Origin: Pagrus major
Taxonomy: Eukaryota > Chordata > Actinopteri > Spariformes > Sparidae
Direction: 5' to 3'
Assembly: GCF_040436345.1 (NCBI RefSeq)
Contig: NC_133225.1
Location: 25,338,040-25,402,039, forward strand
Length of the DNA: 64,000 nt
Part shown: positions 16,389 through 64,000 of the stretch, piece by piece
Numbering within the stretch: the stretch's first letter is position 1
Layout of the letters: each line of letters begins with the position of its first letter
Position numbers and translations under genes: made by a program
Notes under the pieces: model-generated
What the model was told of the DNA's origin: nothing
Seen by the model: the letters and a program-made list of their open reading frames with translations, nothing else
The model's database searches: none

Positions 16389-25100
<8,712 letters not shown>

Positions 25101-28392: not shown

Positions 28393-28473
28393 TTAAGTGC
28401 AGGGTAGTATCGTCTCCACACAGTTGTAGGTCCAGTCCTGTCTGTCATTGATGGGCAGGACGTGTTGGCACAC
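28393..28473 (-). CDS. efcab7: efcab7 exon 13 (C terminus and stop)
   Basis: Acceptor TTCTAG|GTGTGC, 26 codons and TAA. It reads VCQHVLPINDRQDWTYNC, closely matching the human C terminus. Confidence 0.94.
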   Translation of the reverse strand: MCQHVLPINDRQDWTYNCVETILPCT

Positions 28474-31400
28474 CTAGAAGACAGAAAACACATCTTAGTA
28501 TTAGTATAGTCATTTCATTCCATTGTGCCATCATATCATTTATAATAAAAGCATTTTATTTTTCAGAATTAACGATTAAATTGTACATTTGAATTTAGCA
28601 GAATGGATCATTTTTAAAGTCATGGTTTAGGATCTTTTTCTTTTCATAATAACCAAGACAACATTCTCGGGAAGACTTCATACCATCTTCGTCCTGGCCG
28701 GCACCTCGACAGCAAACACACTCATTCCTCTGCTGCTGCAGCAGTTCCTGCTCTGCTCATTGTTCACATGGACAGTCACTTTCTGGTTGGTCTGCAACAC
28801 AATGGTTATTGGTCACTTCACTAATTAGCTTTCTTAACGTGAAATCACAAAATACGCTCGAGTATCAGATACACAAACAGACAAACAGTGCAGATGTGCA
28901 GATTATTAGGACTCTGTAGTATAAAACAATGGCCTATTTTATTTTTGCTCATAAAAATGTAATTAATGTGCTTTATTAACATAAAACTAGAAAGAAAAAA
29001 ACAGATAACATTATCTAATCATCATGCACCAAACTGTTGCTATGTTTGGACACAACTGGAGGTTATGTGGGTGCTGTATGTGTTAACTACTTCCTGCTTA
29101 TGAATCCACAAGCTGCTAGTGTCTTTGTAGTTGAATTGTAAGGAAATCAGTCAATATAAAACAAAATAAATGACAAATCAACACCTTAATGGAGACTAAG
29201 TAAATTGAAGACAAAGGTAACAATTTCTCGTGTTCAGTAGTCTCTTTGTTATCAGCAGATCATTCTTTCTGTGTAGCTCCTGTTGCTATGAGAATCAATA
29301 CGATGGCTGCATATCAATTACAAACAGGGCGAATGGTCCCTGCAACCATACACTTCAGACAGGGTGTCTAATACAAACCCTGGAGAGTGTTTTCATTACC
29401 AGATACTAAAAATAGACTTACATAAACAGCCTGATGTTCTGTGCTCTGAGTAATGCTGTGTAAAATTTGGGAAATAATGAGTTTTTTCTTTCATTCCTTT
29501 CATTTTCTTTTATGTAAAGGACCTCATGAAATGATAAAATAGATTATTAACTTACAGTCTTCACTCATTTCAAAGTTAGACTATCACCCCCCTAGTGGTT
29601 ATTAGGATGCATGGCAACTTGACAATCACATTGAACTAGGAACATTCACTTGCCTCTAAGTAATAAAACTGTGCTTCACATTCATGACACTGTATGGCCT
29701 TAATTTTCAGAATGATGCTCTACCTGCACAGTTAGATAATCACATCTACACAAAGTTTGTCATCTACCTTGTTGGCTATGAGGGAGGAGATCCTGTGTTC
29801 TCCTCTGTAGGTGTAGACGAAGATGTTGTCATGTCCCCTCAGTGCTTTGGCCCCTGTCCTTGTTGTGATGGACTTCTGGAGGGCCTGGTTCAGAAGCTTG
29901 GGGCCTGAGTCCAGACTGAGTGGCTGGATGGATGGCTGAGTGCCTTCACAGTGGACATCTATCTGGAACGGACAAGCCTGACAGAGTGGGGGGGTAAAGG
30001 AGTCCATTCAATTAGTTCTCACAATCAGTAGCCTCTATGTGTTTCTCTCAGTATTTGTGTGTATTAACCAGTGCTTTTGTACAGTAAAGCTTTGGTCATT
30101 GAAATCAAGTGTATGAAACAGAAATAGACAATTCAGTGGCTTGGCTATAATATACGTTTTAAGTGAGAGCACATGGGTAAACTTACATCTACTAGCTCCA
30201 GCATTCGGTTGTAGCCCATGGCTTCCAGGGTGACCCACAGGTCAGCAGGGTCTCCATCTTTCTCTGTGGCCTCCATCAGGTTCAGCTCCATGAAGCCCTG
30301 CCGTGTCAGCTGGTTCTTTCTCATATCAAAGTTCTCTGCACACCCAACAAACAAATAATGAAAGCCACAGCTGAGCCCCCGTCTTACATTTTATTTCATC
30401 ATAATTTTACCTTAAATTTGAGAGTGCAGGGCAATAATGACAATGATTACCTTTGCAGACAGCCCAGGCGTCCTTGTCACATTTCTCTCCACTGGTCCTC
30501 AGCTCAAAGAAATTGTACTCCTCCAGACTGAGCAAACCACTTCCATCCATGTCTATCACCTCAAAGATGTCAGACAGCACCTCCCTGTGGCACAGAGGGA
30601 GCAGCACAGAGAAATGTCATGCAGGACTGTCCAAATCTGCTTTTCAATCGTGCATCCATCCATTCATTCATTCAACAGCTGTGGAACCTGGATGAACCCG
30701 AGGTCTCTCACAAATGTGTTTCAAATCACAGATGCATACAAATACATATATACATGCACACACTCACCTGAGCTCTCTGGTGAGGTCTAGCTCTCCAGTG
30801 TCCGTCCTGTAAACAAGCTCTACAGGTTTATTAGAGAGACTCTTTTTGCTTCTTTTTTTTATTTTGCAGCCACTAGTGAAGGGAAGCAGGTAATAAGTCC
30901 CAGCATTCAATTCTCCTTTCCAGACATACTTCTGTAGGAACACAGGGTAACAAAGCACATTAAAAACACTGAGCATACCCTGGAATGTAGTGAAATCAAG
31001 TGTAAACATCTTTTAGCATTGTTTAGCATCAAAAATGGCTACTACCAGTGGTGGTACCTGAGTAAAGTGAATTTTCACACTTTATACTTCTATTACACTA
31101 CATTTTAGAGGGACATGTTGTACTTTTTACTTCACTGCAGTCTGGCAGCTTTAGTGACTAGTTACTTTACAGATTAGCATTTCTCAAACCCTTCATGTCT
31201 AGTGAAAACCATGTACTGTATCTCCAAATGTTGTTGTTTGGAAATTGATTTTTTTTCTTTCTTTTACTTCTTAAGATAAATAAATTATTAAAAAATCCTC
31301 TTGGATTAGCTGGAAATGCATTGTCACAAAGCTGAAGACATGTTTTTTAGAGATGCATAGTTCTCACAGGACAGCAATGCTACAAACATATGATTATCTT

Positions 31401-34105
31401 ATAAACCATGATGCACTGCAGTAGCTTAAACTACCCAGCAGTATATTAAAAAAATTAAAATGAACCTTGAAATTCTACAGCAGCAGCTTTTACTTTCTGA
31501 TATTTTGAGTAAATTTAGCTGATAATACTTCCATACTTTTACCTAAGTAAGGCTTTGAATGCAGGCCTTTGTGGTATTGCTACTTTGACTTAATTAAATG
31601 ATCTGAATACTTCTCCAAATAAAAACATCCAGCATTAAAGGGTAAATATTTGACACAAAAAGGATTTTTGGCACTGATTAAAACTGAATATAAGTGTTTT
31701 TGTACATGTACATCCCTCAACACACACAAACGTACTTCCTTGTCTTTTGACTCAGTGAAACACACAAATGTTGAGTCTTCTTTGGTTTCGCCAGCTGATG
31801 TCACAAAAACAGTCGTGTCCACGGTCATCCATGAGGACGGCTTGTCTGAAAAATAACATAGAGATAACACAAGATGACAGGGTTTTGAATAGATTGATAC
31901 ACACTTTGTTGAAAGAAATAAAAACAAAACTACATATTAAATACAAAACTAACCAATACAAAAACCTTTGATATAACGTATAATATAAAGAATCTAATTT
32001 AATTTTAAGAAATGCAGATTTATGCGGTCTTCTCTGAAACCAAAAAAACTTTAGGAGATGTTTTGAACTTTTATCTTTGTCTCTACTAAAACACACACAT
32101 ATAGGAAGGATCTTTCACGACCAACATCAATCCACTATCTGTTATTGCCTGTTCAAATTTTATGAAGTGAACTGTACCCTCTTCATAAATAAGCATACAC
32201 TGAGCTGGGACACAATCTAAGACATTTCCTATTAAATCTGACCTGGTGCCACACAATGTAAAATACAGTGCAGAGGCAAATATAGGAAGTCAGTTTCCAG
32301 TGTGGTCTTTTTGTTTGTGATTCACAATCTGAAAATTACTTGTTTTTTTTTATGTTACAATGTCACAAAAAGCACCTTTTACAACTTCAACTTTACGGTA
32401 TTCCATTAAAAACAGTGGTGAAGACGGGGTGCAGAAAACAGGCTAGCAAGAAAATTAAATGAATCCTGAGGGACCTAAGTCTAAATCGAGAATCCTTTGG
32501 AAGGTGCTGTCCTGTTCCTAGCCTATAATAAAACCCCTGTGGCCAATATAGTTATCACTTTGTAACCATTTTTGTTTATATATAACATAATACAGCACCA
32601 GTACCTGGTCTGTGGCTGAGGCTGAGTGGTTGGATGGTTAGGTATACGTTGGTCGTCTGGGGGATATGGAGCTGGTACTGCAGGGAGCTGATACTCCCGT
32701 CTTCCTCCAAGAAGAAACAGCCCTTCACATCACTGTGATGCCACTCCTGGAACAATGCAGTGTGACAAATAAAGCTGAATGATAAATAATGATTCCAAAG
32801 CCTTAGCAGACCAAGCCCCAGTGTTTTCTATTTTTAAGCCCTTTGAAGCATCATATTCAGTCTATAATGTTATCTGTATCACAATATATTTATTATGTGT
32901 GGTCTCCATAGATCCTGACACAACTCCAACAAACTATTTTGCTGCTTGACAACAAAATGCATTAATTCATTCAACAGAAACCAAAACTAATTTGCAGTTC
33001 CTATTAAAATGGGGATTGATCTTGTGACAGGGGAAGAATATTTTGGCATGAAAAAGTGAATTAAGCAGTCAATCCTAACAGCGACGTTGCTCACTTGATT
33101 AACAGAAACTGCCGTTGTGATAATTACCACTCCAACCTTCGGGGGGCATATTCATTATTACGCAGTTTATGTCAGCTCAGCAGCATGTAAACACTTGTTA
33201 TACTCATGTCGATCCAGAGGAGGGCAGAAGTGTTACACTGTGTTACTGCTGAAGGCGAAGCGAATCTCCCTCCTGGACCTGATACGGCAAATTGGAGTCC
33301 ATTTAAGTTTGATAAATACAGCCTTTTCAATCTTGGGCCAGCGGTCATTCAAAACTATCAAGAGGCTACTTAGGCAATATTTATGAATCCTAATATTTCT
33401 CTCATTTTGAAATCCTGTTGTTCCTTTTTCTGGCAGCACAACCGAAATGAGGTAATAATTTGAAATTGAACAGGAACATCAAAACAAGGAAGTTTTCCTT
33501 CCACTCATTGGAGACACATTAAATGAAAACACAGTTGGTGTGGACACACAGTAAGAGGACACTGAAGGGCCAGGCGGGTCTGGAATAGGCTATATATCCT
33601 TTTAGTGGACAAATAAATCACCAAGTTAAACAAAGAAAGTCCCATAAAGACGGAGCATGTCACTCCTGTAGAGAAAAGCCATTTTCTCAAAGTATTTATC
33701 TTGGGCTGTGAGAGGCATAAAAGATCAAACCATAACACTTCAGTGGTTTGTCCAGACAATATTAAATGAGGGAAATGGCCATGGGCACCCATCCACTGCT
33801 TAAAGACATCAGAATTAATGCCCCCATAGAGAGAGGGTCAGCCTGCAGACTAATACAGGCGCTGTCACCTGCTCCGGCCACAGGGCTGATTTACTGCTAC
33901 GCGGAGAGGGTCGCAGGACACCAAACCAGCCACAAACACAATCACACATACACACACACAAACAAACACACACACACATTTTAACCCTAACCTTATTTTA
34001 TGATTCTTATAATTACAACCAACACATAAAAACAAATCCTGAGAATAAAGAATATTCCTCATTGGTTATGTCTGTATTCATGATGACACATTTGCTTCCC
34101 ACAAG

Positions 34106-34163
<58 letters not shown>

Positions 34164-37100
34164 ACATTCACCCCTCAACAAAAACACAGCCTACCCTCCA
34201 CCACCTCCCAATTATCAGCCTGTGGCTATATAGCAGCCAATAAAGCGAGCAGAACTTCCCTCAGAGGTAATCTCTGGACACACATTCTTTCACCTCCATG
34301 ATGTCTGGCCCTTTCCAATCTCAACACACTGCTCGGACCTGAGAGATGGAGCAGGGGGCTGTTATTTTTATTTATTTATTTTTCTTGCTGTAAAGCAAAC
34401 CAGCCAAGGTTAAGCCAAAAAGAGTGAAAACAAAGAGTGCAGGATCAATACAGTGTATATCTATCCACCCTGGGCTAAATTCGCCCATCAAAAACACTGG
34501 GCAACAGCGACAGTGGGAGAGCAGTGGGGCTGAAAGGTCCTGGCTATCATGGAGCCGTTCACTCGAGCCCCCACAGTGACATTTTCCAGTCAGAGATGGT
34601 GATCTTTCAGAATCATAACTTAAGCATGTTGGTTATATGATGATAAGCATAAATTGTAAATGAAATGGATGAATTCTGACTATTTTAAATTAAGAGCTGA
34701 AAGATTGAGTCAACAATTTTTTGAACAATTGCTCGTTAAGTTGTTTACTCAAATTGTAAATTGGATATCTTTGATTTTTGGAGTGTTGATTAAAAAAAGG
34801 TCATATTTGGTTTTGACATTTCACAAACTAAATGCTCAATCAATTTATTGGAAAAATAATTGACAGGCTAATTGACAACGGAGAAAAGGACATTATCACT
34901 AAAGAGATGGTTACCTGTAAGCCTGAGGGCTCTTGTACTTTGCTGGCCTTGGTGCTGCTGGACGTCATAGTGATTGGGTTGGACAGGGACGACCGTCTGC
35001 TGCGAGCGGAAGAAGGACGAGAGGATGATCGGCTGTCTGAGACAAATCAGAGAAAAACGTAAAAACTCAATAAAAAAAATGCTAATGAAAAAACACAATG
35101 CAAAAACAATACATAAAGATTTTTAATGAATAAATCAAGTTGGCATCTCTTTATATTAGGGTACACATATTAACCATTAACTAGCTGCCTATCAGCAGGC
35201 ATATTAGTAACTTACTGGCTACTTATTAGTCATTATAAAGCAATTATAAATGCCTAATTCTGTATTACCATATTTTACAACTACTAACCTTTTTAAAGCT
35301 GACATCTTCACTGTATTCCGTGAAGCTAAAAATGTTAGTGGGCACTCCGTCTGAAGTGGGTGCACAAGCTTGAGGGTGTAAATACTGTCTTTTTAAATCA
35401 ATTTCGGGCTTCCAGAGACTTTGTTTGTGCTGGATAGCTGTATGGAGCCATTTCATTTTCTGTTGTTTCCTTGTATCTTTAAACAGACTTCCATCTATTT
35501 CAGTTGTTTAGGAGAATGGTGCAATGTTGTTTTGCTGTGAAGCTCCAAAAATGTAGACTACAAATCTTCACCTGACTTTCCATCAGCATAGAGGTGAGTA
35601 GATAATGACAAAATGTTCATTTATTAATGATCATTATTCATGTACAACAACTTGCTTACTATCATTTAGCAGTATTTAGGAGGTTATTGAGGGAAAAGTC
35701 TTTGAATGGCCCAGCAGTTGAAGAACATGGTAATGCAGAACAAGGCATTAATAAGTGCTTAATGACTAATAAAGAGCAAAAATGCTACTAACATGCTGCT
35801 GATACACAACTAGTTGATGGTTAGTATGTGTACCTTAATATAAAGTGTTACCATCGAGTCATAACATTGCTGCAACAGAACAGAAAGCTCAATCGACTGA
35901 CTGACAGATTAAGTACAGCCCTCCCCTCTCCAAACAGCAAACACACTTTCAAAAGAGAGATGAGGTGCACAACATAATTGACACTGCAATCTGTCTTCTC
36001 AGTAAGTCCATTCCAGAGTCAGCTACTGTGCATTTGGGTTCTGAAAAAGTGTGATCTCAAGTTAAACTCGCTTTTAATTAATTACAGAGGCCTTTTAAAT
36101 CACAAATGGCATAACAGCACCCTCTCAAATCCATTATCTTGCGCAACTTTTTTTCCTCTTGAACACTAATTGAAGCCTGAAAATATCAATTCATTAATGA
36201 GCGCTCTGATTGTTTCCAAGTCTGGGAAATCAAGCTGTGAAGTAATGTGATGGGCTTACAAGCAAATTACCGTAGCAGAGAAATAAATAGACCCACTGTC
36301 AAGGTATGTGTCATGGATCTATTTTGTATTGATGGCGGTATTTTAATCTAGACGACTAAGTGGTAACTGTTGTGTGAAAGTGGACAAAGATGCACTGAAA
36401 CGTGGCCTAACAAAAGCTTCAATGTGAGTTTATACTGAATGTGAATTTATAGCAAGTGTTGCCCAGGACAAGTGCTGGAAGAAACTGCAAGAGTTGAACA
36501 AAATAGACCAATTATCAGAGAAACACTGTGACAGTTCATCAATTGACCTAACTGTTTGCCAAAACATGTAAGTAACAAAATACCTGATGCATAATAAATC
36601 AGTATCTCATCAATTATTTGTAAAATAATTAGCAAAAATTGCCCATGTCCCATACAGTTCTAACATATTTCTCAGGGTAGTAGTAGTTTATACTGACAAA
36701 TGTGGGACCAAATGAGCAGTCAAAACTGTTTTTGAGCTCCAACAATAACCCATTCAACACATGCGCTCACATCTCATCTCGTGCCAGAGTCTTGTTAAAA
36801 TGTAGCGGGTATAAATCAATACGTGGGAGAAGCACAATAATGTGATAATCCAGACAACTATGTGGGAGCTCATTTGTTTTTGCAGTGGTGGTCGAGCGGG
36901 CCCTCCTCTCGACCACCGTCTAATCCCTCATCAGCTCCCCAGTGAGAAGTGGTGGAATCCTCCAAATCAATAACATGAACATGGACTGACCACTTAAATC
37001 AACCCCATCTATCTTCCCACTGTGGGCCTGTCCCTGGCTCGCTCATCCAGAATCTCTGTTCTTCTCTTTCCTCAAAATGCTGGTTTTAAAGTGCGAAGAA

Positions 37101-39870
37101 GTGGATTTTTTTTACATCCACCTTTAACTAGGTGAAGGTGCTGTCTTCTACAGAAAAAACTCTGTGGTTCATTATCCTTGGTTGCAGATGGGTGAAGCTC
37201 GACTTGATGCCAGTCCTTGTTTGTTTAAGCTGTGAAAACATAGTTCTGGCAAGAGCTCTAACTCAGCAGCCATAGTTGAAAGGCAGCGTTTTTCATCAGA
37301 GCAGATGGAGCTTTTGTCAATCTCTTAATGGCAGAAATGATTACCCAAATCACAACACTTTACAGTCTCCTCCCTCCAAACACGCTGCCCTAATTGTGCG
37401 GCTATTATGATGTATGGCCTGTCTTAATGAGGTGATTTGTCACAGGGGGAGTGAAAAATCGATCAATAACAGAGCTATTATTTATTCATCAAAACTAATC
37501 GGTGAGGCGTATAGGGGCAAGCAGTGTGTACTGGTGTGCAACTATAAATTGGAATCAGAAGTATACTTGGTGTGCAGTTTCCATTGGCTGCTACTTTGGA
37601 GCTGGAGATGGTGTTTCACAAACTGACATTATGTTTAGGAGACGTACACCAGGACAATGTGAGCATTTTCAAGCAAGTCTTATATTTTTCTCAATATCAG
37701 TATCTTGTCCCCCCCTTCTCTTGTTTTTTTCTTTTGAATGTTTGTTAATTCATACTTCAGACGTTGATGTTTGAATCAGACTCCATAAAATATGGTAAGA
37801 GGTTAGATATAAATATGCTTCAATGTTATTTTTTATGTGAAAGTCTTTCCGATGGTAGGAAATGTGGATTTTTTTTCTCTCTCATTTTTTCCCCCTCAAA
37901 AGTACATTTTCCCTTGTGGAATTGCTATTCGTGTTTTAAACTTTCAATAAATATGTATAACAAGAAAACAAAACATGCATTACATACTTAACTGTTATAT
38001 TGGCTCAGTTGTATGTTAGATTCTTCTTGGATGTCACATGTTTTACCTTTCTTGAGTGTCGTATCTGAGTCTGTCCTTGGTGTTTCTGGAGGCTGAGGCA
38101 GAGTTGCTGCCGCCTGTGATGCTGCTGCTGCTGCTGCTGCTGCTGCTGATGACACGGAGCTCTTCGGAGGGCTGTATGACTGACTGCCAAAGTTCTGTCT
38201 CTTCAGCTTGGCATTAGCCTCAAGCCTCTCCAAAAGAGCCATCTGACACTGCTCCACTGTAGACACAAGCAATCTGCAGAACTGACAGCAACAGGAAACC
38301 AGTAGTAAGACGCTGATACATGAGGATGTTCTAGGGTCAGAAATGCTTATGTCTTGGATGGAGGTAAGGATATGACAAGAAATAAGGACTTTTCTTTGCC
38401 ATTTGCATCACTGACTCTGCATTTTATGTGAACTTTATTCAACTTTAAAGATAAACGTTTTGTACAAATGATCCACAAGAAAAGTTATTTTATCCTTAAC
38501 TGTGGTGCATTTGAACTGGTTCAGAACAATACAGATGGAAGGGTGGCACTCAATCCCATTGACCATTTTTGGTATAATTTTACTTTTTCTAAAAGTTTTT
38601 CCCCCCGACTGTTTGGGATAGAAGCCTTAGTTCTGAGGCTTTGCTAGTTTAAATAGCTGATACTTAAAGATGGGAAATATGTATTTAAAATACACTTACA
38701 TGTGTTTTCTATACAGCTACATGGTAACACGGTCAGTAAGAAAGAATAGAAGTCACTTCATACTTGTCTTAACTTACTTCTGCATAGTCCAGTTTCCCAT
38801 CTTTGTTGACGTCAAGTAATGAGAAAATAGCATTCACCTCTTCAATGGTCATTTTCTCGCCTCTCTGGAAGATTCAACATATTTTCTAATTAGGCAGTCT
38901 ACATCTGTAATACAACAGTTGTTGAGGTACAGTAATTCAGTTGTCTGAATACAGTGCATCACACAGTTCCCTCAAAACTAAACCTAAACATGAACCTAAA
39001 ACAATAAGAATACAAAATCTTTTAGGCAACTCACAGTGGTGAGGGCCTTCTCCAGTTCACTGTGTGAGATGTAGCCATCTCCGTTCACATCCATCTTTTT
39101 GAAGCTTCTCAGCAGCTCGGTCTCCTCAGTCTTCTTCTCACACTTGAGAATCTCACAGAAGTCGTCAAAGTTCAGTTTGAATGTTGTCGAGGTCCAGTAT
39201 TTACTGAGAGTTGCATGGGATGGATTCCTACCAGCCTGCTGGAGAGCTAAATAGGAAAGAACATTGAGTCTACAAGTAGCAACAGCTGATGACAGCAAAT
39301 GTGGCAGGACTTCTAATGGCTTTTCTGACATACCTTTTAAATGTCAGGTACATTTTTGAAACATGTAATATATTGTGTTTTTGCAAATTGTAACATCTGT
39401 ACCACTGATTATAACAAAAGTCAACATACACTTCCCCTCTTGTATTTCCCCTTAAGTAGCTTCAGAGGTAAAGAGGCAAGATTCCATGTTTTTATTCTGT
39501 AAAAGAGAAATGCTCTAAATGTCTTGTGCATCACTTTATCACATTTTATATTTTTGGAAACTCTGGAATCATCACTAGATGTTCTCGCGGACTGATCCAT
39601 GTATACTGTAGATGCACGGCATCGTGTTCCGAATAACCACGAGCAGGTAATAGGGGTGTAAGAGTTTAACGGGAAATGGCACATAAAATTCTCTAGTGAG
39701 CAAACTATTTAGCCTAGTTAATACTTTGACATTAGCTTACCACGACATAACTGCTGTTTCGAAGCGATATTCGTCAAACTAGATCTGAACACAGCTAAGT
39801 ATGCGGCTCTGCAGTGCATGTAGAAAGCCTCCTCTTCATCAGAAGGACGGGGTGACTCTTGAAAAGACAT
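28393..39870 (-). CDS. efcab7: EF-hand calcium-binding domain protein 7, complete 13-exon CDS
   Basis: EFCAB7 works with IQCE to anchor the EVC-EVC2 complex at the base of the primary cilium and so promotes Hedgehog signal output. The 13 exons join in phase to 1884 nt (627 aa; human is about 629). EF-hand loops are visible at about 96-107 (DVNGDGYISHSE), 132-143 (DVNKDGKLDYAE) and 412-423 (DMDGSGLLSLEE), all with canonical calcium-ligand positions. A low-complexity linker (about 176-262), rich in Ser, Pro and Ala, includes nine consecutive Ala. The blocks KGCFFLEEDG, SSWMTVDT, YNFFELRTSGEKCD and LTRQGFMELNLMEA match human EFCAB7. The start MSFQESPRPSDEEEAF is the first ATG of exon 1. It is transcribed away from itgb3bp through a shared promoter. 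Introns not listed separately hold nothing I recognise. Confidence 0.96.
28684..28791 (-). CDS. efcab7: efcab7 exon 12
   Basis: Acceptor GTTGCAG|ACCAAC, donor AAGATG|GTATGA, 108 nt, phase 0 at both ends. It contains KVTVHVNNEQSRNC and RGMSVFAVEVPARTKM. Confidence 0.94.
29768..29977 (-). CDS. efcab7: efcab7 exon 11
   Basis: Acceptor CTGTCAG|GCTTG, donor AACAAG|GTAGAT, 210 nt, phase 0 at both ends. It begins ACPFQIDVHCEG and ends ISSLIANK. Confidence 0.95.
30187..30335 (-). CDS. efcab7: efcab7 exon 10
   Basis: Acceptor GTGCAG|AGAAC, donor GTAGAT|GTAAGT, 149 nt. It encodes ENFDMRKNQLTRQGFMELNL and DLWVTLEAMGYNRMLELVD. Confidence 0.97.
30451..30584 (-). CDS. efcab7: efcab7 exon 9 (EF-hand 3)
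   Basis: Acceptor CCACAG|GGAGG, donor AAAG|GTAATC, 134 nt. It contains LSDIFEVIDMDGSGLLSLEE and YNFFELRTSGEKCDKDAWAV. Confidence 0.97.
30768..30931 (-). CDS. efcab7: efcab7 exon 8
   Basis: Acceptor CCTACAG|AAGTAT, donor CTCAG|GTGAGT, 164 nt. It contains WKGELNAGTYYLLPFTSGC and LVYRTDTGELDLTREL. Confidence 0.95.
30932..31735 (-). other. efcab7 intron 7, mostly a dispersed repeat
   Basis: About 31038-31575 resembles a common fish repeat ('GGTACCTGAGTAAAGTGAAT', 'TACTTTTTACTTCACTGCAG', 'CAGCTTTAGTGACTAGTTAC', 'TACTTTTACCTAAGTAAGGC', GAATGCAGGCCTTT). This is from recollection; there is no second copy in the window. Confidence 0.6.
31736..31845 (-). CDS. efcab7: efcab7 exon 7
   Basis: Acceptor TTTTTCAG|ACAAG, donor AAGGAA|GTACGT, 110 nt. 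It encodes DKPSSWMTVDTTVFV through VCFTESKDKE. Confidence 0.93.
32605..32746 (-). CDS. efcab7: efcab7 exon 6
   Basis: Acceptor GTTCCAG|GAGTGG, donor ACCAG|GTACTG, 142 nt. It contains KGCFFLEEDGSISSLQYQL and VYLTIQPLSLS. Confidence 0.94.
33943..33978. repeat. Imperfect (CA)n microsatellite
   Basis: CA units interrupted by CATA and CAAA. Confidence 0.9.
34108..34158. repeat. (CA)n microsatellite
   Basis: About 25 uninterrupted CA units. Confidence 0.97.
34915..35036 (-). CDS. efcab7: efcab7 exon 5 (Ser/Arg-rich linker)
   Basis: Acceptor GTCTCAG|ACAGCC, donor TTACAG|GTAACC, 122 nt. In the phase set by exon 4 it reads DSRSSSRPSSARSRRSSLSN and on to EPSGLQ, resembling the corresponding human linker in composition. 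Confidence 0.85.
35037..38046 (-). other. efcab7 intron 4
   Basis: It contains a long inverted-repeat element at 35148-35849. Non-repetitive high-complexity blocks at about 36150-36320 and 36830-37020 could be regulatory. No exon was seen. Confidence 0.8.
35148..35849. mobile_element. Inverted-repeat element with about 145-bp arms
   Basis: The left arm (35148-35290) and right arm (35705-35849) are diverged reverse complements. Both carry forms of TTATATTA(G/A)GGTACACAT, TTAACCATTAACTAG, CAGC(A)GGCATATTAGTA, CTTATTAGTCATTA and ATGCC(TA)ATTCTG. The 35291-35704 centre is unrelated sequence without an open frame of interest. It is a non-autonomous element whose family I recognise as common in fish but cannot name. 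Confidence 0.75.
38047..38281 (-). CDS. efcab7: efcab7 exon 4 (poly-Ala linker)
   Basis: Acceptor GCTGTCAG|TTCTGC, donor AAAG|GTAAAA, 235 nt. It begins FCRLLVSTVEQCQMALLERL, then a Ser/Pro stretch and nine GCA-encoded alanines at 38122-38149. The Ala frame is the one fixed by the flanking splice phases; the alternative frame would read poly-Gln. Confidence 0.93.
38778..38864 (-). CDS. efcab7: efcab7 exon 3 (EF-hand 2)
   Basis: Acceptor CTTCCAG|AGAGGC, donor GCAGAA|GTAAGT, 87 nt, phase 0 at both ends. It reads RGEKMTIEEVNAIFSLLDVN and on to the second loop. Confidence 0.94.
39035..39246 (-). CDS. efcab7: efcab7 exon 2 (EF-hand 1)
   Basis: Acceptor TATTTAG|CTCTCC, donor ACCACT|GTGAGT, 212 nt. 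It contains GRNPSHATLSKYWT, KLNFDDFCEILK and the first calcium loop. Confidence 0.95.
39741..39870 (-). CDS. efcab7: efcab7 exon 1
   Basis: ATG followed by 43 codons, donor CGTG|GTAAGC, phase 1. It encodes an acidic start (PSDEEEAF) and the conserved CRAAYLAVF. Confidence 0.92.
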
Positions 39871-40397
39871 CTTTGGAAGAAGATATCGACCTGGTTACCG
39901 TTAGCTAGCACTCTCCAGCTATGAAATCAGACGACGGCCAACACGGCAGCTAACTCAGACTAAATTATGTTATTTGTAATTTTTCGTGACACTTTACAAT
40001 CACCCGAACGCATGCAAAGGTGCATTTTATTCGTTAAAATTCGCGTTAGCAATGACACTGAAACACTGTTGCTATCTGCTGTCTGTTGCTAGGTAAACAA
40101 AAACCCATCTGTGTTCACCTAAAACGACACGGAAGAAACAAACGTTAACCTTTCCCGTTGCTTAAAAACTAATGTGATGCTGTATGGCATCTCTGTGTAA
40201 TATAGATAATGTTAATGTTTAAAATATAAATAAGGATTTATTTTTTTATTCAGACTGTTTGTTGCGTGGTCGTTTTAGCAAAAGGGGACATGCGGAACTT
40301 TGTAAAGGCCAGCCTATGTTTTACACGAACTGTTGTGAGTGTAGCAAAGGCGGCAGTTTCATAAATTTGTGACAAACTTCTGCCAAGACAGCTTAAA
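39871..40397. promoter_or_regulatory. Bidirectional efcab7/itgb3bp promoter
   Basis: The 527 bp between the two divergent ATGs must hold both 5' UTRs and promoters. The human orthologues are also divergent. An X-box-like site is at 40085-40098. No TATA box is placed convincingly. Confidence 0.8.
40085..40098. promoter_or_regulatory. X-box-like (RFX) motif
   Basis: GTTGCTAGGTAAAC resembles the RFX-binding X-box (GTTGCC then RGYAAC half-sites), with one mismatch in each half. RFX factors drive ciliary genes, which fits efcab7. No binding evidence is available from sequence. Confidence 0.4.
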
Positions 40398-53249: not shown

Positions 53250-53445
53250 TTATGTAGAGCTGCAACCAACAAAAAACTGAAGAATTACAATTTACTGCAA
53301 TGCAAGAAAAGCAGGGAAAAAGCAGGGAACTGTCATATTTAAGCAGCTGGAACCGTCACCAAAATTGACTAAACGATAAATTATTTTTCAAAACAGTTGC
53401 CAATTGATTTTCTTTCAATCAATTAATCGTTGCAGTTGTACATCT
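53250..53445. repeat. ATTAATCG-family repeat in the alg6 3' UTR region
   Basis: Ends GAGCTGCAACCAAC and AATTAATCGTTGCAGTTGT, with the internal 'AAGCAGCTGGAACCGTCACC' typical of the family. Confidence 0.75.
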
Positions 53446-53536
53446 GTTCTATTTGCACTTGGGACATGATGGCACGAGTGATAGCCTTCATGCACATTCA
53501 GAGCAGACAGTGTGGATCACTCCCCTTTGACATCAT

Positions 53537-53734
53537 TCAGTTCTTCTTCTTCTGGCTCTTTCTGCTCGGTGGCCCGCTGAACTGAACAATGTTGAAATAT
53601 ACAAATGTTCCAAAGAAGTGCAGGAAAGCAGTAGTAGACACCAACACAGGAAACAAGTCAGGTAGATGTGGAGGAGGAACCAGAGCGACACTCGCGACAC
53701 TCAGACCTGCCATGGCTATGACGCTGATGTAGAA
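53537..53734 (-). CDS. alg6: alg6 last exon
   Basis: Acceptor GTTACAG|TTCTAC, 65 codons then TGA. It reads FYISVIAMAGLSVASVALV, then LPDLFPVLVSTTAFLHFFGT, ending SRKSQKKKN with an ER-type lysine-rich tail. Confidence 0.95.
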   Translation of the reverse strand, partial: FYISVIAMAGLSVASVALVPPPHLPDLFPVLVSTTAFLHFFGTFVYFNIVQFSGPPSRKSQKKKN

Positions 53735-56700
53735 CTGTAACGCAGACAAGCAGAGACAGAGGGGATATGAAATTGATTGAAAAAAGAACAGGGACACGAG
53801 TCATTTAGTCTGTTGAGTTCAAAATGAAATGCTTAAAGACTTAAGAACCTCAGGCTGAGGTGAAATAGCTGCAGTCAGGTGCTACTAGAAAGTTTGGAAA
53901 ATACTTAATACTTAATCCTTAAATTGGCTCGAACATCATCTGGTGTTTCATCCACGCAATCACTCATTTAAAAATCTTTTTATAATTGAAATGAAACAAT
54001 CATCATCATATTGAAATCATTAAGAATAAAGTAATCATTATCAAACATATTATAACAGTAAATATGAACAGCTGGTAAAATCAAAACTTTAAACTTTAAT
54101 TAATTTATATCGATTGCTGGAGGTAAAGAGGAATTTTGTATTTATGACAACTTAGATGAGTCTGGTAATTGTTGATTTAGGTAGCTTCAAAGTGTTTTTA
54201 ATCATAAAAGGTTTAACCCAAGGTCACCTTAATTTTTAAACACAAAAATTGAGTTTGTCATGGAGATGGTTCAAGTGATCATCGTGTGATCAAGTATGGA
54301 ACCTCAGTCACGTGATCATATATGGGAAGGAGATCGTAACCTCTGTCTCTCATGCATGCCATTTCCATGATGAATACCATGCGAGGTGGTTGGGAGTCGA
54401 GATTATTTTTTCAGTTTGGGCTTGGAGACAGAATATTTTTGAAAAAACAAATCCTGTCTTTCAGATTGAGCTGTGGGGTTTAGAAGATGTGGGAGTTCAC
54501 AATACGGGGAGGGTCTAAAGAAAGATGTTATAACGCTGTATGAGTTCAAGCCCAGGATCCAGCATTTTAAGTATCTGAACTACTATTGGAGCTGAAAATT
54601 TAGGATACCCAAGTCTCTTTAAATGCAGAAATACGGCCTAACTGCCTTTTTGCAATGACTGAATTGATATTCCATACCAGAAACTGTTCCTCATAAAATA
54701 ATGAAAAGACTGGGCACCTCAGGCTAAGAACAAACTGTTAGCTTTTCTTCTAATTTTAAGTGCAACTATAATATCAAACCAATGAATGATTTAATTTGAA
54801 AGAGCTCTCAAATCAGATTAGATATTTATCACTGGATGACTTCCATCAAATTGGTCATTTAGAGCTGCTATAAAGAAATGATGATTCTGCAGAACAGCCA
54901 TCCTGAATTAAGTCCCACATAACTACTTTTTGCCGTGTTACAGAGTTGCAAACAAAACTGTTGGTGAGAGTGAGATCATTCATGTGTCTATTTGGACTTT
55001 ATGACCCAGAGACAAGTCAGTGAGTAAGATGGAGGAAACACCTCCTGCCCACACCCTCCCCGCCACCCCAAACCCATGAAACCTTATCGCCTTCATTGGG
55101 GCTCGCTATTTATGCTGCTTGTGTAAATAAATATATCTAGGCAAACCTGTGTTAATGACATGTGCTATAAAAAGACACCTCCTCTTAATCTCTGACACCC
55201 TACCGGTGCCCCTGTCGCTAAGGGGCTGGCAGTGCAGCCACTTCAGACGCTGTGGAAACTTAAATAAGTGATAAATAATTCTTTGGCTGGCAGTGGCTTT
55301 CATCCCCGGACAGCTTACACAGCTTACAGCGGCACATGATCTTTATTTATACAGTTGGGTATATCTTCTCACACGCTTGCAATTTGGGTCTAGTGCCACT
55401 TTCAAAGTACAGGCCACCTGGGATCCTGAAATCAGCACCCTTCTTATTACAAATGCATCAGCTGTACATCCTCCTCCCCCCATGTACAAGAGCAGACATG
55501 AACTATTGACTTAATCAAGCAGCGATATCACTCACACTACTTTGTTTTCGGTTCAATGAACGTCAGAAACAACAAGACGCCATGCTTTAAATTTAAAGCC
55601 CCTTTGTCTCAGATTGGACATTTTTTTAATTTTGGCACCTCCTAATGGCCATATCCAAAATACACTGTGGTAAAGAGGAACTGAGGCCACAACTGATCCT
55701 GTAACAATGATAGGAATGGGCTGATATGAGTTTTTACTGGGATTATCTCATGTCTCCACAGACAAAAGCTCACTGCATTAGAATAATTTGAAAAATGCTA
55801 TAATGAAATTTAAATTCTACACATGGTGGCTTTAAATTAACCCTATGTGCACAATCTGTTGAAAACAAGGATGAAGACATATAAAACCTCCTTCCCTACC
55901 TGTCTTAATAAGCATTAGGTAATCTGCATGACCTTTATTTTATTGACCTTATTGTCATTAGCAACCAATTAGAGCTGCAACCACAAAGATAAAAGCTACT
56001 GCCTGCTGTACAAATCTCAACACAGCTTGACCTGCAGCATGTAACTGATATAAACCATGACATCACATCTGCACTTCCTAAGTGTATTATTTGATATTGT
56101 TTTGACTGGAGATGCTAATTTTAAGCAATTTCTTTAATTGATAGGCGGCTGCCTTTTTCAATTGATTATCGTTAATCAATAATCATATATGAAATATGTT
56201 GGACATTTTTCCATTAGAAAACTGTTTTAACAATGACATGATTTTTCTTCGATGCAAAAAAAGAGTAGGCTACATTAAGAGTTAAAATAACATAATGTAA
56301 ACACCAAGTTACTTTAATGATAAATTGAATAACATACAATAAAGACCTCATTATAATTGCAGAGCTCCTGTCTGTCACTATTCAACAACTGCCCACACTG
56401 AGGCTGCTAAATGGCTAAAATGTAATAATATCAGTTACTTGTATTGCAATTTAATATTTTTCTCATACCAGTATTTTGTATTTTTTATATATATACTTGA
56501 TAAGCAAGTATTTGTAATTGTAACGAAGACTTTTTAATGTATATGTGCCCATCTATGATTGTCGATTAAGTCATTTTAATAGGCTAAATTCCTAAGAAAT
56601 CCATTCATTATTTCTCATCCTAGTTTGTGATACGGTAAAAATGTTCCCTCGTCAGTCCACACATACTCCATAAGGACTGAGTTGAAGATTTTCAGGTCAA

Positions 56701-59700
56701 AAGATGATCAAAACCAGACTAAATAAAAAGAATAAAGAAAAGTCAACTTTTGTAGATATAAAGTTACATATAACCAGGTTTGACTAGAGAAAACACTTAT
56801 TACACATATTGGTGTTAGGTTTTTCAATTAAAAAAAATATGCAATTCAGATCATTTTGGACCATTATTATTACTATCTGTGTACAAAAAGCTGAAAGAAG
56901 CTGTTTAAGAAGTCCTAGCTACAACCAGATCTGTGATAAGTCATCTTGTTACTCGTCAAATACTGGCGCTTTGGAATTTTTAGGACTCTAAATAGCAAAA
57001 TGCCCCTAAAACAGTTATATGTAACTTCTAACATCTAACACCTTGATTAACTTAACAACCAAATGTAACCTGGTTGTAACATAGACAGTACAAACCCACT
57101 AAAATCAGTGATGACTATAATACTGTTCATCATTGCACCAGGACTTTGACCCCACTGACCTTCCATCTTACAATACAGGCCAGGTCCAGTTTGGGTAGGC
57201 AGAATAGCAGCTTGCGATAGGCTCCCAGTCGCAGCTCTTCTCTGAACAGTGCTCCAGTGCAGACAGTAGAAAGACGCTGAAGAAGAGGAAGGCCAGCGAG
57301 GTCACAACGTAGGGCACCAGCAGACCATCCTTTAGTAACAGAGGCACCATGCTGCACAGAGGGACAAGGATAAGAACAATGGAGCACTTACAGTTCACAA
57401 TTTGGAGATTTTTGCTGATGTCTGGAGCATTTACAATAACACAAAGGACAGCAACGTAATTGACTCTAAACAGAGTCAGAAAGAGTTGCAGCTGGAGCTC
57501 TGATACAGACTTTTACAATGGAATAAGGAAAATGGGATTTATATATATATGTATATCAGAAATTGAGAATAGAGCAACAGTAGACAACATAGCTTTTATC
57601 CAGCAGGCCTGCACAAGCAGTCTGTCCCCTGAGGAGAGATGGCTCTGACATTCATGCCAAGCTTATCTTAGTTTAGCAGAGGGCCATGGACAAGAACAAC
57701 AGTTGACTCATAGTAAATCGCACGTCACCCCAGCTTGTAAAAACCTATCCGCTCCCAACAAACCACTCATTCTGATTTTTACTCCAACAAAAAAGCCCCA
57801 TTCAGCAGATAAATGTTGAACAATTTGGAAATACATACTTGGTCAATTTAAACAGACTGGCTGCATTCTGTCCTCTTAAAATTGCTATGGTTGAGCATCC
57901 ATTCAGCCAATTATGCTAACAAAAGATGTATTTTTTAAAATGGCAGAGCCTGTAGAGGATGCAGATAATGTGATGTTAGACTGTACTGAGAGGCAGCTAC
58001 AGAATGACCTCCTGTCCCTACACAACGCACACTTAGACAGCAGGCATGCAGACTATGCCATGTAATCCCCAGATATCCTTATACTAAACCACACGCACAA
58101 CAATTAGTGCTGCCGGAAGAATTTAACAACAGCTGGTGAAAGTTAGACACAGCATTCGCAGCACTACTTGTCTTTTCCATTCATGGTCCTCAGCTCGACC
58201 CGTATCGCAGATCCATTTAGCTTTTTAGGATTATTTCTACGGCTGCTTCTCATTTGATAGTTAACAATGGTGAGACAGAGAAAGAAATAAAAATAGGTGA
58301 TTATAAAATTCCAGATTCAAAATCTGGCCACTAGATTTATGTGGTACATGGCATTTAAGCCACTTGGACATCTCACTCATTTATGTTTTTCAAGAGGAAA
58401 CAGTAGCACAGGTAGATAAAATCAGTGAACTGACTCAGTAATGTCAGTTATAAAGCAATATCTATCTATCTTAATTCTGCTAACCATAGCGTAGAGTGTA
58501 TGTGATTGAGAACTCTCGAACTTTTGTGTTTTATGTCCAACATATAAGGCAGGTTTTGTAAGAAGTAAAAGATGCACTATTGATGAGTATTTAAGGAAAA
58601 AAAAAACATAACCATCAGTAAAGGCACATGGTCTTACCTGAATGTAGAGACCTGCAGGAAATAAATAGCCACCAAGGGGAGGTCATTCAGTAGGAGGCAG
58701 ACAGGCCTGGAAAAGATCAAAGTTCAATATACTCAGTGTTAAGCACACTCAACAGTAAGTACCATTAAATATTATTTTACAATAAGACAGGAAGTGAGGC
58801 CATGTTCAGTCAGAGCTTAATGTGAACTGATATCATGCGTGTATCACATTAAAGGAACTCACCCCATATTATGTCCACATTAATTGATTATGACCGTCTC
58901 TCTCAAGGCAGTCAAGTGTTTGTTGTAACACATTAATTTATACCAGTATATTCCTTTGACTGTGAATGCACTCGGACGTATGGTATGGTACAGTAAAACC
59001 TTCAATAACTGTGCTTAAAAATCCAACTTGAAGTAAGTATTCAATTTCATCATTAAAAGACCTGAAAATGTTTTGCCAAGAAGTCACAGTGTTAAAATGA
59101 TGACGTCATGGCACATTTGTGTTTCTGTGTAGTGAAAGCCTCTTATTCGATGAACCTAGTTGCCTGCGTCATTGCTAGCTGGCGCTAGTTGCACACTGTG
59201 CTCCGAGGGGGGCACTTTCCATCGGTCCCTGAGCCCATAATTACAGGCAGTGCTCTTTGGCGATCCTGTTACAGCCCAATAATTGATCCTGCGCAAACAA
59301 CGCCCCGAGCTGCTGCCTGCCATTCTTTCCTAATCCCTGGACATGCATTACTGATTGATTCAGGGGGACAGGTGGGAGATATAACTCAATAGTTAATAAA
59401 GCAACAATCTACCCTAATCTAGATTAATAGATGAGCCCAGATCTAGGAACCAAATCCCTCGCTGTCAAATCTGTGCCAGACTTCGCTCTCCTCCTACAGC
59501 CGCCACTTATACATATGGAGGTAAATGGTAATGAATCACACACACACACACACGGACGTCTTTAAGTTCAGGTCTGGGTTCCTTCAGCTTGTTCATTGTC
59601 AAATCCGAGGTGCATTTTCAAGGTTTTCATGCAACTTACTTCTGTGGTAAATTACATATTTCTATACATACACTCAAAATGATTATTCACTTCATCAGAT

Positions 59701-62700
59701 TAATCAGATGTTATGGTGTTATAAACAACCAAATTATGTTTTGTGATAGCATTCTACAGAAAGGTGACAAATAGAAGAAACACACAAAAAAGTTTCATGT
59801 TTTAAAAAGTGTCACCTTTCTGTAAGTAGACTTGGCATCATATATACCCTGGCTCAGTCAGTATAACACAATTTATTTATGAAAGTAATGCTGTTCTAAT
59901 TTAAGGCATTTTCAAGCCAAAATCCAAGAACTTTTCATACCTTGAACAAACACATTAAAATCTAAGCATTTTAAGGTTTTCCAGCAGCCATACAAGCCCC
60001 GTCATGTATGCAAGTGCTGCATTCACTCTGTTAAATATGACCCTGACACACAGCACAGCACATATCATGACAATAGAGTGTGATGACAGAGGTGAATAAC
60101 TCCTCAGTTAGCAAGTCTGTACTTAAATAGATTGTTCCTCTGCAACTCTGGGAGCACAGCAGGAGGATGATGTCACTTTTACAGAGTGCTCATGTATTCA
60201 ACTCATTAACAATCCGCAGGACATAAACTGAGATCAGACGAACAGCTCCCTTTGTGGGCAGAAATTAAATCTATACTCATGAATATTTGAGATGTCACTA
60301 GAAGATAGAAAAAGCACCGTCACGGCGGTCACAAGTTGGGACAAAACCTGGAGAAGTTACTGCTATTACCTCGGTACTTACAAAGCAGCCAAGAGGATGG
60401 ACTTCTCGTGGACTTGATAGGAGAAGAGGAAAAACGCCAGAGATGAATTAGCCTAAAAGTGACATTGAAATTATTAGTATTACTGTAACTGAAAATCAAT
60501 ACTGGATAGAATCATTTTTAATAAAGACAGTGAGAAAAATACTAATGTATGAAAGGATGTCTCAATAGTGTACACATTGTAATTACTGTAGTTTGTAGAA
60601 TAATCGATTAGTTTGTTTTCTATGCAATGTTTAAAAAATGAGAAAAATGTTGATTAGTGTTTCCCAAAACCAAAGATGACATCCTAAAATGTCTTGTTTT
60701 ATCCACAAGCCAAAGATATTCATTTTACTGTCATAGAGGAGTAAAGAAACCAGTAAATATTCTTATTTAAGAGGATGAAATCAGACAATTTTGACTTTTT
60801 TTCCCTCCAAAAATTACTCAAACCGATAAATTGATTATCAAACTGTTGGTGGTTAATTTAGTAGTTAACTGATTTATCATTGCAGCTTTAAACTATCTGA
60901 CAATATCAAAGACAAGACAGTGAAATTCTAAACAAATTAAAATAATTAAATTACTGATATTTGAGCCTACATGTGATGGGTTACAAAACAGACCTAATCT
61001 TTCTCTAAGGGGAAGATCTGTAGATTCGGCTTGCTATTGTTTTGGATGCACTTACCAAGGCCAGTTTAAACTGCCAGAAGGTGGGCTTCGTCAGGAGTCT
61101 GACAGAGGACGGTAGGACCGCCAGGAGAGTGCAGGCAGTACTGTAAACAATACAAGTGAGCAGTCAGATTCAACACCAAAAACAGTTAATGCACAAAACA
61201 ATAAAAAATCTCCACTGGGACATGAAGGAAAAAATAATTATACAGCAGACGAAATGTAGAGTATGAAATCAATTTAGAATCAATATGAATAAATGCATTT
61301 GCACATAATTCCAGGCGCTCATTTTTCTGTTGTGTTGATATGGCTTCATGTACGAACTGATAACAACCCCAGATTTGTTTTGCATCAGTGGCGCAAGATG
61401 AGCTGATATTGATGTGAAACAATCAAATGTAAAACCAAAAGCTGTGGGTCTGTTTTTTTAGACACCGCCTGCTCCGCAAACTAAGACCTCTGCTATGTGG
61501 GACCAAAAACCAAATACTGGCCCCTTCTCAGGGTTAGCAGGCATTAGTTTAACCCTTCAATTGTCACCTGCTGGGGGTGGAGGCACCGGAAGAGAGTGAC
61601 TAAGTGTCAGTGTGAATGTGCTGAGAGGTCGGGCAGCGAGTTAGCTCAATGCGTGAGGGCAACAATGTGTTGGTGCTACGACACAGACAGACACACACAG
61701 ATAGATGGAGATAATGATGGTGGTAGATAGACAGAAGTAATAAAAGGACCAGTAAGTGGGTATTTAGTGTGTGTATGAAAGCGAGTGTGTTATGCGTGTG
61801 TTATGTGCAGGGCAGGGTTTTGCGGTCCGGAAGGACATGGATCACTTTTCACAGCTGATTCATTCTATGTACACAGTACACCCACACCACACCAGAGCAT
61901 TTAGCAATCCGCTCCCTGTGCCAAAAAGACAAGAGTGTTTTTCATTTGTTGGAAATGCACTACAGTCAAAGAAGTCCAACTTGATCCCTGGACTTAGCAG
62001 TCTGGCAGAAACGTGTCCATGCTGCGGACATAAGACCCCTAAATTTAGCGTGCTGGGTTATTTAAGCAGGCTCCACCATGACACAACTGTTGCATCGACT
62101 TCTTCTCACTGTGATCGAACAGGTTCTCAGCTTTTGGTCAAAGTAACTTCCGAATACTTCTTGGGGTTCTGCGCGGGCCAGGGGGCAGAGAATCTCAAGT
62201 GTTTATTACGTCATCTCCGCCGCAAGCACGATTAATTGTCTTCATTGTATCACATCATCCATTAAAGTACATATATCGATATCATTTTTGAAAAGGAAAT
62301 CGGGTTACAATGCTTCCATCTCTGTATACAGGCCACAAAATTAGCACCAGCCCATCAGCCAAATGCTGGTAAAATATGCAGGTTGGTAGATTTTCTTTAC
62401 TCATCAGCCCAAAAAAAAGTAATCTATTGAGTGGGAATGGTAATCTATTTATTCTTATATGACACACTGCAATAGCTCCTTGGGCAATCCAGCCTCTTGT
62501 CACCACACTTCCAAAGACAGCTGTGACTTCACATTCAAATGTTCCTCACAAGATGTTTCCTGACGGGATGATCTGGTTTCCACCCCACAGGATCACTGTC
62601 ATCATTTCCTTGGGTAAGCTCTGCTTTCCCAGGAAACGAAGAAGTGAAAACAAGAGGCAAGAGGGAGGGGAGTCAAAGAAAGACAGACAGACAGAGAGAC

Positions 62701-62837
62701 AGACAGAGAAAAAGAGAGATGAAAGATAGATGAGGGAAAAAAAGGGATTACCTGAGGTAGATCTGGGAGTCACTGGACAGAATGGATCTGATCTTTATCA
62801 GGATGTTCAAGCTGCACCATGTGTTGGCCACCTTATC
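53537..62837 (-). CDS. alg6: ALG6 alpha-1,3-glucosyltransferase, 3' six exons, with apparent frameshift
   Basis: ALG6 is a multi-pass ER membrane enzyme (GT57) that transfers the first glucose from dolichyl-P-glucose to the Man9GlcNAc2-PP-dolichol N-glycan precursor. Only the C-terminal part, about 230 residues, is in the window; the 5' exons lie beyond the right edge. Matches to human ALG6 run in order: DKVANTWCSLN (human DKVANIWCSFN), VHEKSILLAALPVC (human VHEKSILLVSLPVC), STFSMVPLLLKDGLLVP (human STFSMLPLLLKDELLMP), and the last exon with ISVIAM, LPDLFPVLV and VYFNI, ending SQKKKN. Hydrophobic spans in every exon fit a polytopic protein. The penultimate exon changes frame at about 57236-57244. 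As written it hits TAA at 57168-57170 and loses the last transmembrane region. Convergent with itgb3bp, as in human. Confidence 0.93.
53735..57159 (-). other. alg6 last intron
   Basis: No exon was seen. An ATTAATCG-like fragment lies near 56130-56260. A GC-richer non-repetitive block at about 55060-55310 contrasts with the A/T-rich surroundings. Confidence 0.75.
57160..57351 (-). CDS. alg6: alg6 penultimate exon, internal frameshift
   Basis: Acceptor TGTGCAG|CATGG. The first frame reads SMVPLLLKDGLLVPYVV and on to SALEHCSE. Downstream, similarity continues only in another frame (EELRLGAYRKLL and on to CIVRWK). One added base within GAGAAGAG restores EEE, as in human, and makes the exon end in phase 0, the phase the last exon needs. 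Without it the frame stops at TAA 57168-57170. Two phase-0 donors are possible in the downstream frame, AAG|GTCAGT (chosen for alignment length) and ATT|GTAAGA twelve bases earlier. Confidence 0.85.
57352..58637 (-). other. alg6 intron
   Basis: Nothing recognisable was found on either strand. Confidence 0.7.
58638..58706 (-). CDS. alg6: alg6 internal exon
   Basis: Acceptor TTTTCCAG|GCCTG, donor ATTCAG|GTAAGA, 69 nt, phase 2 at both ends. It reads PVCLLLNDLPLVAIYFLQVS and on to TF. Confidence 0.93.
58707..60381 (-). other. alg6 intron
   Basis: It holds a CA microsatellite at about 59538-59554 and a non-repetitive block at about 59150-59400. No exon was seen. Confidence 0.75.
60382..60452 (-). 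CDS. alg6: alg6 internal exon
   Basis: Acceptor CTTTTAG|GCTAAT, donor GCTTT|GTAAGT, 71 nt, phase 0 to 2. It reads ANSSLAFFLFSYQVHEKSIL and on to LAA. Confidence 0.95.
60595..60890. repeat. ATTAATCG-family repeat
   Basis: 'AATCGATTAGTTTGTTTTCT', 'CATCCTAAAATGTCTTGTTT', 'CAAAGATATTCATTTTACTG' and TTTATCATTGCAGCTTTAA follow the family's usual order. Confidence 0.78.
61056..61140 (-). CDS. alg6: alg6 internal exon
   Basis: Acceptor GTTTACAG|TACTG, donor GCCTTG|GTAAGT, 85 nt, phase 2 to 0. It encodes TACTLLAVLPSSVRLLTKP and WQFKLAL. Confidence 0.92.
61141..62751 (-). other. alg6 intron with a 154-codon plus-strand open frame
   Basis: No alg6 exon was seen. A plus-strand open frame at 61771-62235 has a CPCCGH motif and a basic end (LLRHLRRKHD) but no family I recognise. 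A GACA-rich tract lies at about 62675-62706. Confidence 0.7.
62752..62837 (-). CDS. alg6: alg6 internal exon (first in window)
   Basis: Acceptor GTGGACAG|GATAAG, donor CTCAG|GTAATC, 86 nt, phase 0 to 2. It reads DKVANTWCSLNILIKIRSIL. The acceptor is preceded by a long TG repeat instead of a pyrimidine tract. Confidence 0.93.
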
Positions 62838-62841
62838 CTGT

Positions 62842-62842
<1 letters not shown>

Positions 62843-62926
<84 letters not shown>
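62843..62926. repeat. (CA)42 microsatellite abutting an alg6 acceptor
   Basis: 84 bp of uninterrupted CA on plus, equal to TG in the alg6 transcript, ending four bases before the acceptor AG. Confidence 0.97.
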
Positions 62927-62930
<4 letters not shown>

Positions 62931-64000
62931 TGCTTTAACAAGAAATTATGTCATTTGAAAACACAAAAACAACACTTTGATGCCAGTGTAATAAAATAAC
63001 AGAATTCCATTATGAAGAGAAAGCAAATAAGTGGCATTGCTGTAAGTAATTATTTCCCCACTGAAAGTGCAATAAAAATTCCCCGGGGGCATTCCAGAGG
63101 GACATTTGTATGTAACCCTCCATCATAAATTTACTCCCCTGCCAGGAAAAGCATGGGACTTATTCGTAAACTTGAGGACAAAAGGTCAAGAGTCGAGGCA
63201 GAGTAGTTTTTGCATAAGCAGCAGATACAGACCAACCACAGAGCCCTGCTGACAAATACAGAATATCAATATATAATATACAATATATAACTATTCTCTA
63301 TAGTATTATTTTAAGCAAAAAAATGTAAACTATTTTACTAAACTAATTTCTAGGACTGCTTTTCATTATCAATTAATCTTCCAGTTATTTTCTTAATTGA
63401 TTAACTGATTTGCTTATAAAATGAAAATAAAATAAAATAGTGAAAACATTTCCTATAGTCAAAATTACTGAAAACAGAGAATAATAATCAATTAGTGGTA
63501 TTAAAGAAAATGAATTGCCATCTATTTTGATAATCAACAATAACTGTTTTAGTTTCAAGCAAAAATGGCAAATATTTGCTGGTTCCAGCTTGTTAAATGT
63601 GAGGATTTGCTGCTTTTCTTTGCCATTAATGGTAGTAAATGAAGAGTCTTTGGGTGACTGTTGGTTGGACAAAAGAAGAAATTTAACGACGTCACCTTAG
63701 GCTCTGAGAAATTGTAATTGGCATATTTTACACATTTTAAAATAAACTACTTGCAGCCTGTGAACTGGTAAATTCTTTATTTCAGCTCTGATAAAAAAAA
63801 ACATTTTTTCTCTGTATTAGAGACTGCATCATTCTTTAATTGTTTTTATAAATAACCCGTAAAATCAGATCTTTAAGTTTTGTGAATGATGTGGAAGATA
63901 TGTTACAACCTTTAATACCAGCCTAAAAGTACTTGCGGTTTATGAGAGATGAGGAGGGCGTTGCTGGGAGATTCAGTTGATTTAAGTGCTTAAGCAGTTG
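62927..64000 (-). other. alg6 intron running off the right edge
   Basis: No exon matching the preceding ALG6 segment (human FPVDRGLFE region) was found. It includes an ATTAATCG-family repeat (63350-63762) and a non-repetitive block near 63010-63190. Confidence 0.7.
63350..63762. repeat. ATTAATCG-family repeat
   Basis: 'GACTGCTTTTCATTATCAAT', 'AATATTTGCTGGTTCCAGCT', 'GACGTCACCTTAGGCTCTGA' and TACTTGCAGCCTG identify the family, here close to full length. Confidence 0.78.

Follow-up and report, generated by a model that had tools for sequence, protein, structure and literature searches.

ALG6 is an ER enzyme that adds the first glucose onto the dolichol-linked N-glycan precursor. According to an excerpt of PMC6801728, ALG6 has three extra membrane spans at its C-terminus, together with a C-terminal dilysine. 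In an excerpt of PMC4422726, efcab7 and pgm1 appear in the gene list as ALG6 neighbours, PGM1 is listed as duplicated in the teleosts studied, and the alg6 duplicate that arose from the teleost genome duplication is given as lost in medaka, stickleback and tetraodon; hence, losing the remaining copy should matter. Frame breaks may also come from assembly: as described in a section of PMC8081667, long-read vertebrate assemblies before polishing stood at Q30-35, short indels were their commonest errors and caused frameshifts, and once the goals, Q40 included, were met, frame-shift base errors were present in <3% of genes.

The window (the whole stretch of DNA that was analysed, 64,000 nt) carries the C-terminal part of a predicted ALG6 ortholog, six exons of which were placed from 62837 downward (Table 1). 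An AG acceptor was present in all six exons and a GT donor in the five that have a donor. The phases were consistent at the alg6 junctions, except at the exit of exon 57351..57160 into the last exon. When the DNA of this exon was compared with the window by blastn (E <= 1), no second copy was found, the sole other match being 27 nt long with an E of 0.085. Also on the minus strand are efcab7 (28-40 kb) and pgm1. The efcab7-like stretches, found with a human query, number 13 and lie at 28405-39873 on this strand, and pgm1 looks complete, with 11 minus-strand stretches at about 16390-24970.

Table 1. Positions of the alg6 exons and of the features around the frame break in the window.
Feature	Position	Strand	Remarks
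alg6 exon	62752..62837	minus	open in the expected frame; acceptor adjoins a long TG tract
alg6 exon	61056..61140	minus	open in the expected frame
alg6 exon	60382..60452	minus	open in the expected frame
alg6 exon	58638..58706	minus	open in the expected frame
penultimate exon of alg6 (192 nt)	57160..57351	minus	phase 2 at entry and, as written, at exit (splice sites, phases, frames)
short purine-rich stretch holding the frame break	57235..57243	minus	frame A passes to frame B at 57240
premature TAA, frame A	57168..57170	minus	ends 8 nt before the exon end
frame B continuation EELRLGAYRKLLFCLPKLDLACIVRWK	57160..57240	minus	frame reading and Pfam scores
last alg6 coding exon	53537..53734	minus	open frame with two hydrophobic spans, closing in SQKKKN (the dilysine end) and then TGA

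The borders of the penultimate exon, read on the minus strand, are cag/CATGG at the acceptor and GGAAG/gtcagt at the donor. Frame A of this exon gives MVPLLLKDGLLVPYVVTSLAFLFFSVFLLSALEHCSE (57350..57240), then KSCDWEPIASCYSAYPNWTWPVL, and then the TAA, and frame B gives EELRLGAYRKLLFCLPKLDLACIVRWK, which continues in frame into FYISVIAM...SQKKKN and the stop of the last exon. The ALG6-like reading reaches ...EHCSE in frame A and is picked up one frame over at 57240, at a site that is no long homopolymer. Relative to the conserved frame, one base is missing from the penultimate alg6 exon. The original prediction had placed a frame change near 57230-57250 in this exon, and our coordinates, the TAA and the resumption of frame B at 57240 agree with it. 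Its phase argument was borne out as well, i.e., the 192-nt exon leaves in phase 2, whereas the last exon (53734..53537) requires phase 0, and the stop does lie near the exon end, the TAA ending 8 nt short of the junction. Human ALG6 is taken to read SEEELQLKS here; the peptide EELQLKS was absent from the alg6 literature matches listed. Downstream, frame B remains open for 92 codons up to the natural stop, and an open frame of this length has by itself a chance of ~0.02 under the local base composition.

Support for the two-frame reading came from the Pfam profile PF03155 (ALG6/ALG8), for which the cutoff of the Alg6_Alg8 profile is 25 bits. The part before the break scored 113.9 bits over profile positions 252-412, and the as-written sequence reached 116.9 bits, with the alignment extended to 417. 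When frames A and B were joined by X, the score was 130.5 bits (profile 252-481). With shuffled tails (n=6) the score was 114.9-117.4 bits, and some of these tails lengthened the alignment too, the furthest to position 466 of 482, but the score was not raised. With peptides that carried a few extra exon-border residues, the part ahead of the break scored 103.8 bits, the sequence as written 106.1 and the joined frames 123.3. Alone, the frame B tail reached 13 bits (E 0.05), which is under the cutoff, so that the evidence is its place in line and not its own score; as the sole tail that adds much to the profile score, it is by this measure apparently beyond chance. In addition, the joined product (a query with a few extra exon-border residues) aligned with residues 324-552 of the yeast ALG6 structure (6SNH/6SNI) with an E of 5e-15. 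The alignment continues to the end of the protein; similarity to 6snh is poor around the break and improves again in the last exon, at its PDL motif. Yeast ALG6 was the single PDB match up to E 1 for the joined product, and this match, together with the neighbours pgm1 and efcab7, points to ALG6 rather than to its relative ALG8. The earlier naming of the gene as alg6 is upheld by both the PF03155 match and the yeast structure match. Frame A of the penultimate exon alone gave no PDB match up to E 1, and a Pfam scan of 53401-63000, translated in all three frames of the minus strand and with X in place of stops, brought up no family, such long diluted frames being a poor query. The DNA of the exon had no match in phage records, and no relative of the frame A protein was found in prokaryote genome contigs (589 pattern-matching stretches, 0 confirmed) or in viral contigs (94 such stretches, 0 confirmed); in all of these collections only stray host DNA could help.

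As the sequence is written, HCSE is followed by 23 foreign residues and then by the TAA. The original prediction had put the loss at about 85 residues and at one final transmembrane region; we counted 92 residues (27 in the penultimate exon and 65 in the last one), and the lost part holds two strongly hydrophobic spans, with Kyte-Doolittle means of 2.17 and 1.67, as well as the dilysine end SQKKKN. A weaker third span has a mean of 1.05. Both strong stretches and SQKKKN are out of frame as written and are present when frame B is read into the last exon. Translated as it stands, the sequence would give a protein that has no dilysine ER-retrieval signal and probably lacks two of the three spans.

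At the other end of the part placed, a perfect 84-bp TG tract (42 repeats, 62843-62926; CA on the plus strand, TG on the minus strand) ends 5 nt before exon 62837..62752. Only GACAG stands between the tract and the exon, so that an ordinary pyrimidine tract is missing. A TG repeat next to an acceptor has a parallel in CFTR exon 9, and the length of the repeat might affect the inclusion of this exon, which is 86 nt long, so that its skipping would break the frame.

The two neighbouring genes served as controls of sequence quality. Read against solved PGM1 structures in three frames, pgm1 gave 11 stretches (5 + 4 + 2) that together span the enzyme, with an offset of 23 between chains 5hsh and 5epc. 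From their printed positions, neighbouring stretches are at least 67 nt apart, so that the frame changes between them presumably fall at introns; a gap of one residue leaves the frame unchanged. The human efcab7 query gave 14 rows. One of these, a chance row on the plus strand (E 9.8), was dropped. The 13 minus-strand rows cover residues 15-628 and are at least 103 nt from their neighbours; five have whole-residue gaps, and one row is weak (E 0.22). No frame break was observed in the 11 stretches of pgm1 or in the 13 of efcab7, ~3.5 kb of control coding sequence. These controls rule out a very poor assembly, but an error rate near 1 in 10 kb is still compatible with them. The window contains 0 N bases. 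Tandem repeats were considered as a clue to the sequencing method and were uninformative, the longest array listed being 84 bp. No second lesion was found in the six alg6 exons placed.

The earlier note had left the origin of the break open between an assembly error, a segregating allele and a fixed change; there is still no proof, but base rates and the intact remainder of the gene now favour an error. The best explanation, which we hold to be reasonably probable, is a one-base consensus or assembly error in the short purine-rich stretch of alg6, so that the base would have been lost in sequencing rather than in the animal, and the animal probably makes full-length ALG6. An error is favoured because an isolated one-base loss is found in an otherwise intact gene that is reported to be single copy in three teleosts; as read from the letters, the presence of only one lesion, the agreement of splice sites and phases elsewhere and a downstream frame open to its natural stop all argue for it. 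The choice among the explanations rests on base rates, and the likelihoods given here are judgements, not measurements. A few percent of about twenty thousand genes amounts to hundreds of frame-error cases, and the real loss-of-function alleles of one human genome number perhaps a hundred, of which few affect conserved single-copy enzymes. A highly polished assembly would swap the ranks of an error and a real rare allele. Against an error, no long homopolymer lies at the site, and no breaks are seen in pgm1 or efcab7, so that errors are not frequent locally. The rule for nonsense-mediated decay sets the limit for the stop at 50 nt from the last junction; the TAA, being late and <50 nt from the last junction found, lies where real disabling variants are better tolerated. 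A real one-base deletion, either segregating or private to the sequenced animal, is a less probable alternative. Its mRNA would probably escape nonsense-mediated decay and yield a protein that ends in the foreign tail of 23 residues and has neither the last two hydrophobic spans nor the ER-retrieval signal. The position of the TAA, which ends 8 nt from the last-exon junction, fits such a deletion, as do the single lesion in six exons, which a young allele predicts, and the lack of a local excess of breaks in pgm1 and efcab7; base rates, however, point to an error unless the assembly is highly polished, and human ALG6 defects lead to a congenital disorder of glycosylation (excerpt of PMC2861021). 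Among the literature matches listed there was no report of an alg6 lesion of this kind, which is not proof of absence; those listed on truncation did not name ALG6-CDG, and alg6 S478P had no literature match.

Recent genome duplications are known in salmonids and carps. A fixed change, in which the species has a truncated ALG6 or this is one decaying copy of two after such a duplication, is improbable: the splice sites, the last exon and the downstream frame are intact, so that decay would be very recent, and the duplicate alg6 is reported as lost in three other teleosts (excerpt of PMC4422726). A decaying pseudogene is not supported, since several independent lesions are expected of it and one was found in the six exons placed; alg6 was not named among the matches listed from the teleost pseudogene and frameshift literature. 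It is likewise improbable that the species truly has a shortened ALG6 that lacks the last two hydrophobic spans and the dilysine signal and is tolerated in this form, or that the break is circumvented via the acceptor at 57241, which would restore the frame with an internal deletion. The least probable explanation of all is that the break is real yet circumvented, through either a cryptic splice site or ribosomal frameshifting. Use of the cryptic acceptor at 57241 (ttcAG/AGAAGA) would bring the preceding exon, which leaves in phase 2, into register with frame B and would drop the first 110 nt of the penultimate exon, but this acceptor has 12 pyrimidines in 20. An acceptor at 57166 also suits frame B, but it leaves nearly none of the penultimate exon. 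Of the nine GT sites upstream of the break, five have a phase-0 exit that would suit in-frame joining to the last exon, but the nine score 3-6 out of 9 on the donor consensus, against 8/9 for the normal donor. Moreover, every route removes conserved sequence, and none of the splice changes examined at the break restores the full product. Skipping of the penultimate exon was rejected because it would join phase 2 to phase 0, and the donor-like ATT/GTAAGA at 57171 because frame A exits there in phase 2 and is unfit for the last exon. The slippery heptamer of a -1 frameshift has the form X XXY YYZ, and a programmed -1 ribosomal frameshift was discarded in turn, as the codons at the break, A GAG AAG, do not form such a heptamer.

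If the break is an error, the outcome is one corrected gene model. If it is real, the locus would show, as a natural experiment, whether a vertebrate needs the ER-retrieval signal and the extra C-terminal spans of its ALG6.

Like late-gene loss-of-function indels that escape nonsense-mediated decay, alg6 has its stop in the exon before the last, 8 nt away from the junction, but its break is known from a single sequence. The frame-shift errors of assemblies, as presented in a section of PMC8081667, are likewise single short indels in a coding gene that is otherwise intact, and the alg6 site differs in not lying in a long homopolymer. With respect to the enzyme itself, the gene in the window resembles yeast ALG6 and PF03155 in the profile match when it is read through, in the alignment to the yeast structure and in the C-terminal dilysine (as in the excerpt of PMC6801728), and it differs from ALG6 in a penultimate exon that is one base short, which as written removes 92 residues and adds a foreign tail of 23. 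Its neighbours, efcab7 and pgm1, are the same as those in the excerpted list of PMC4422726.
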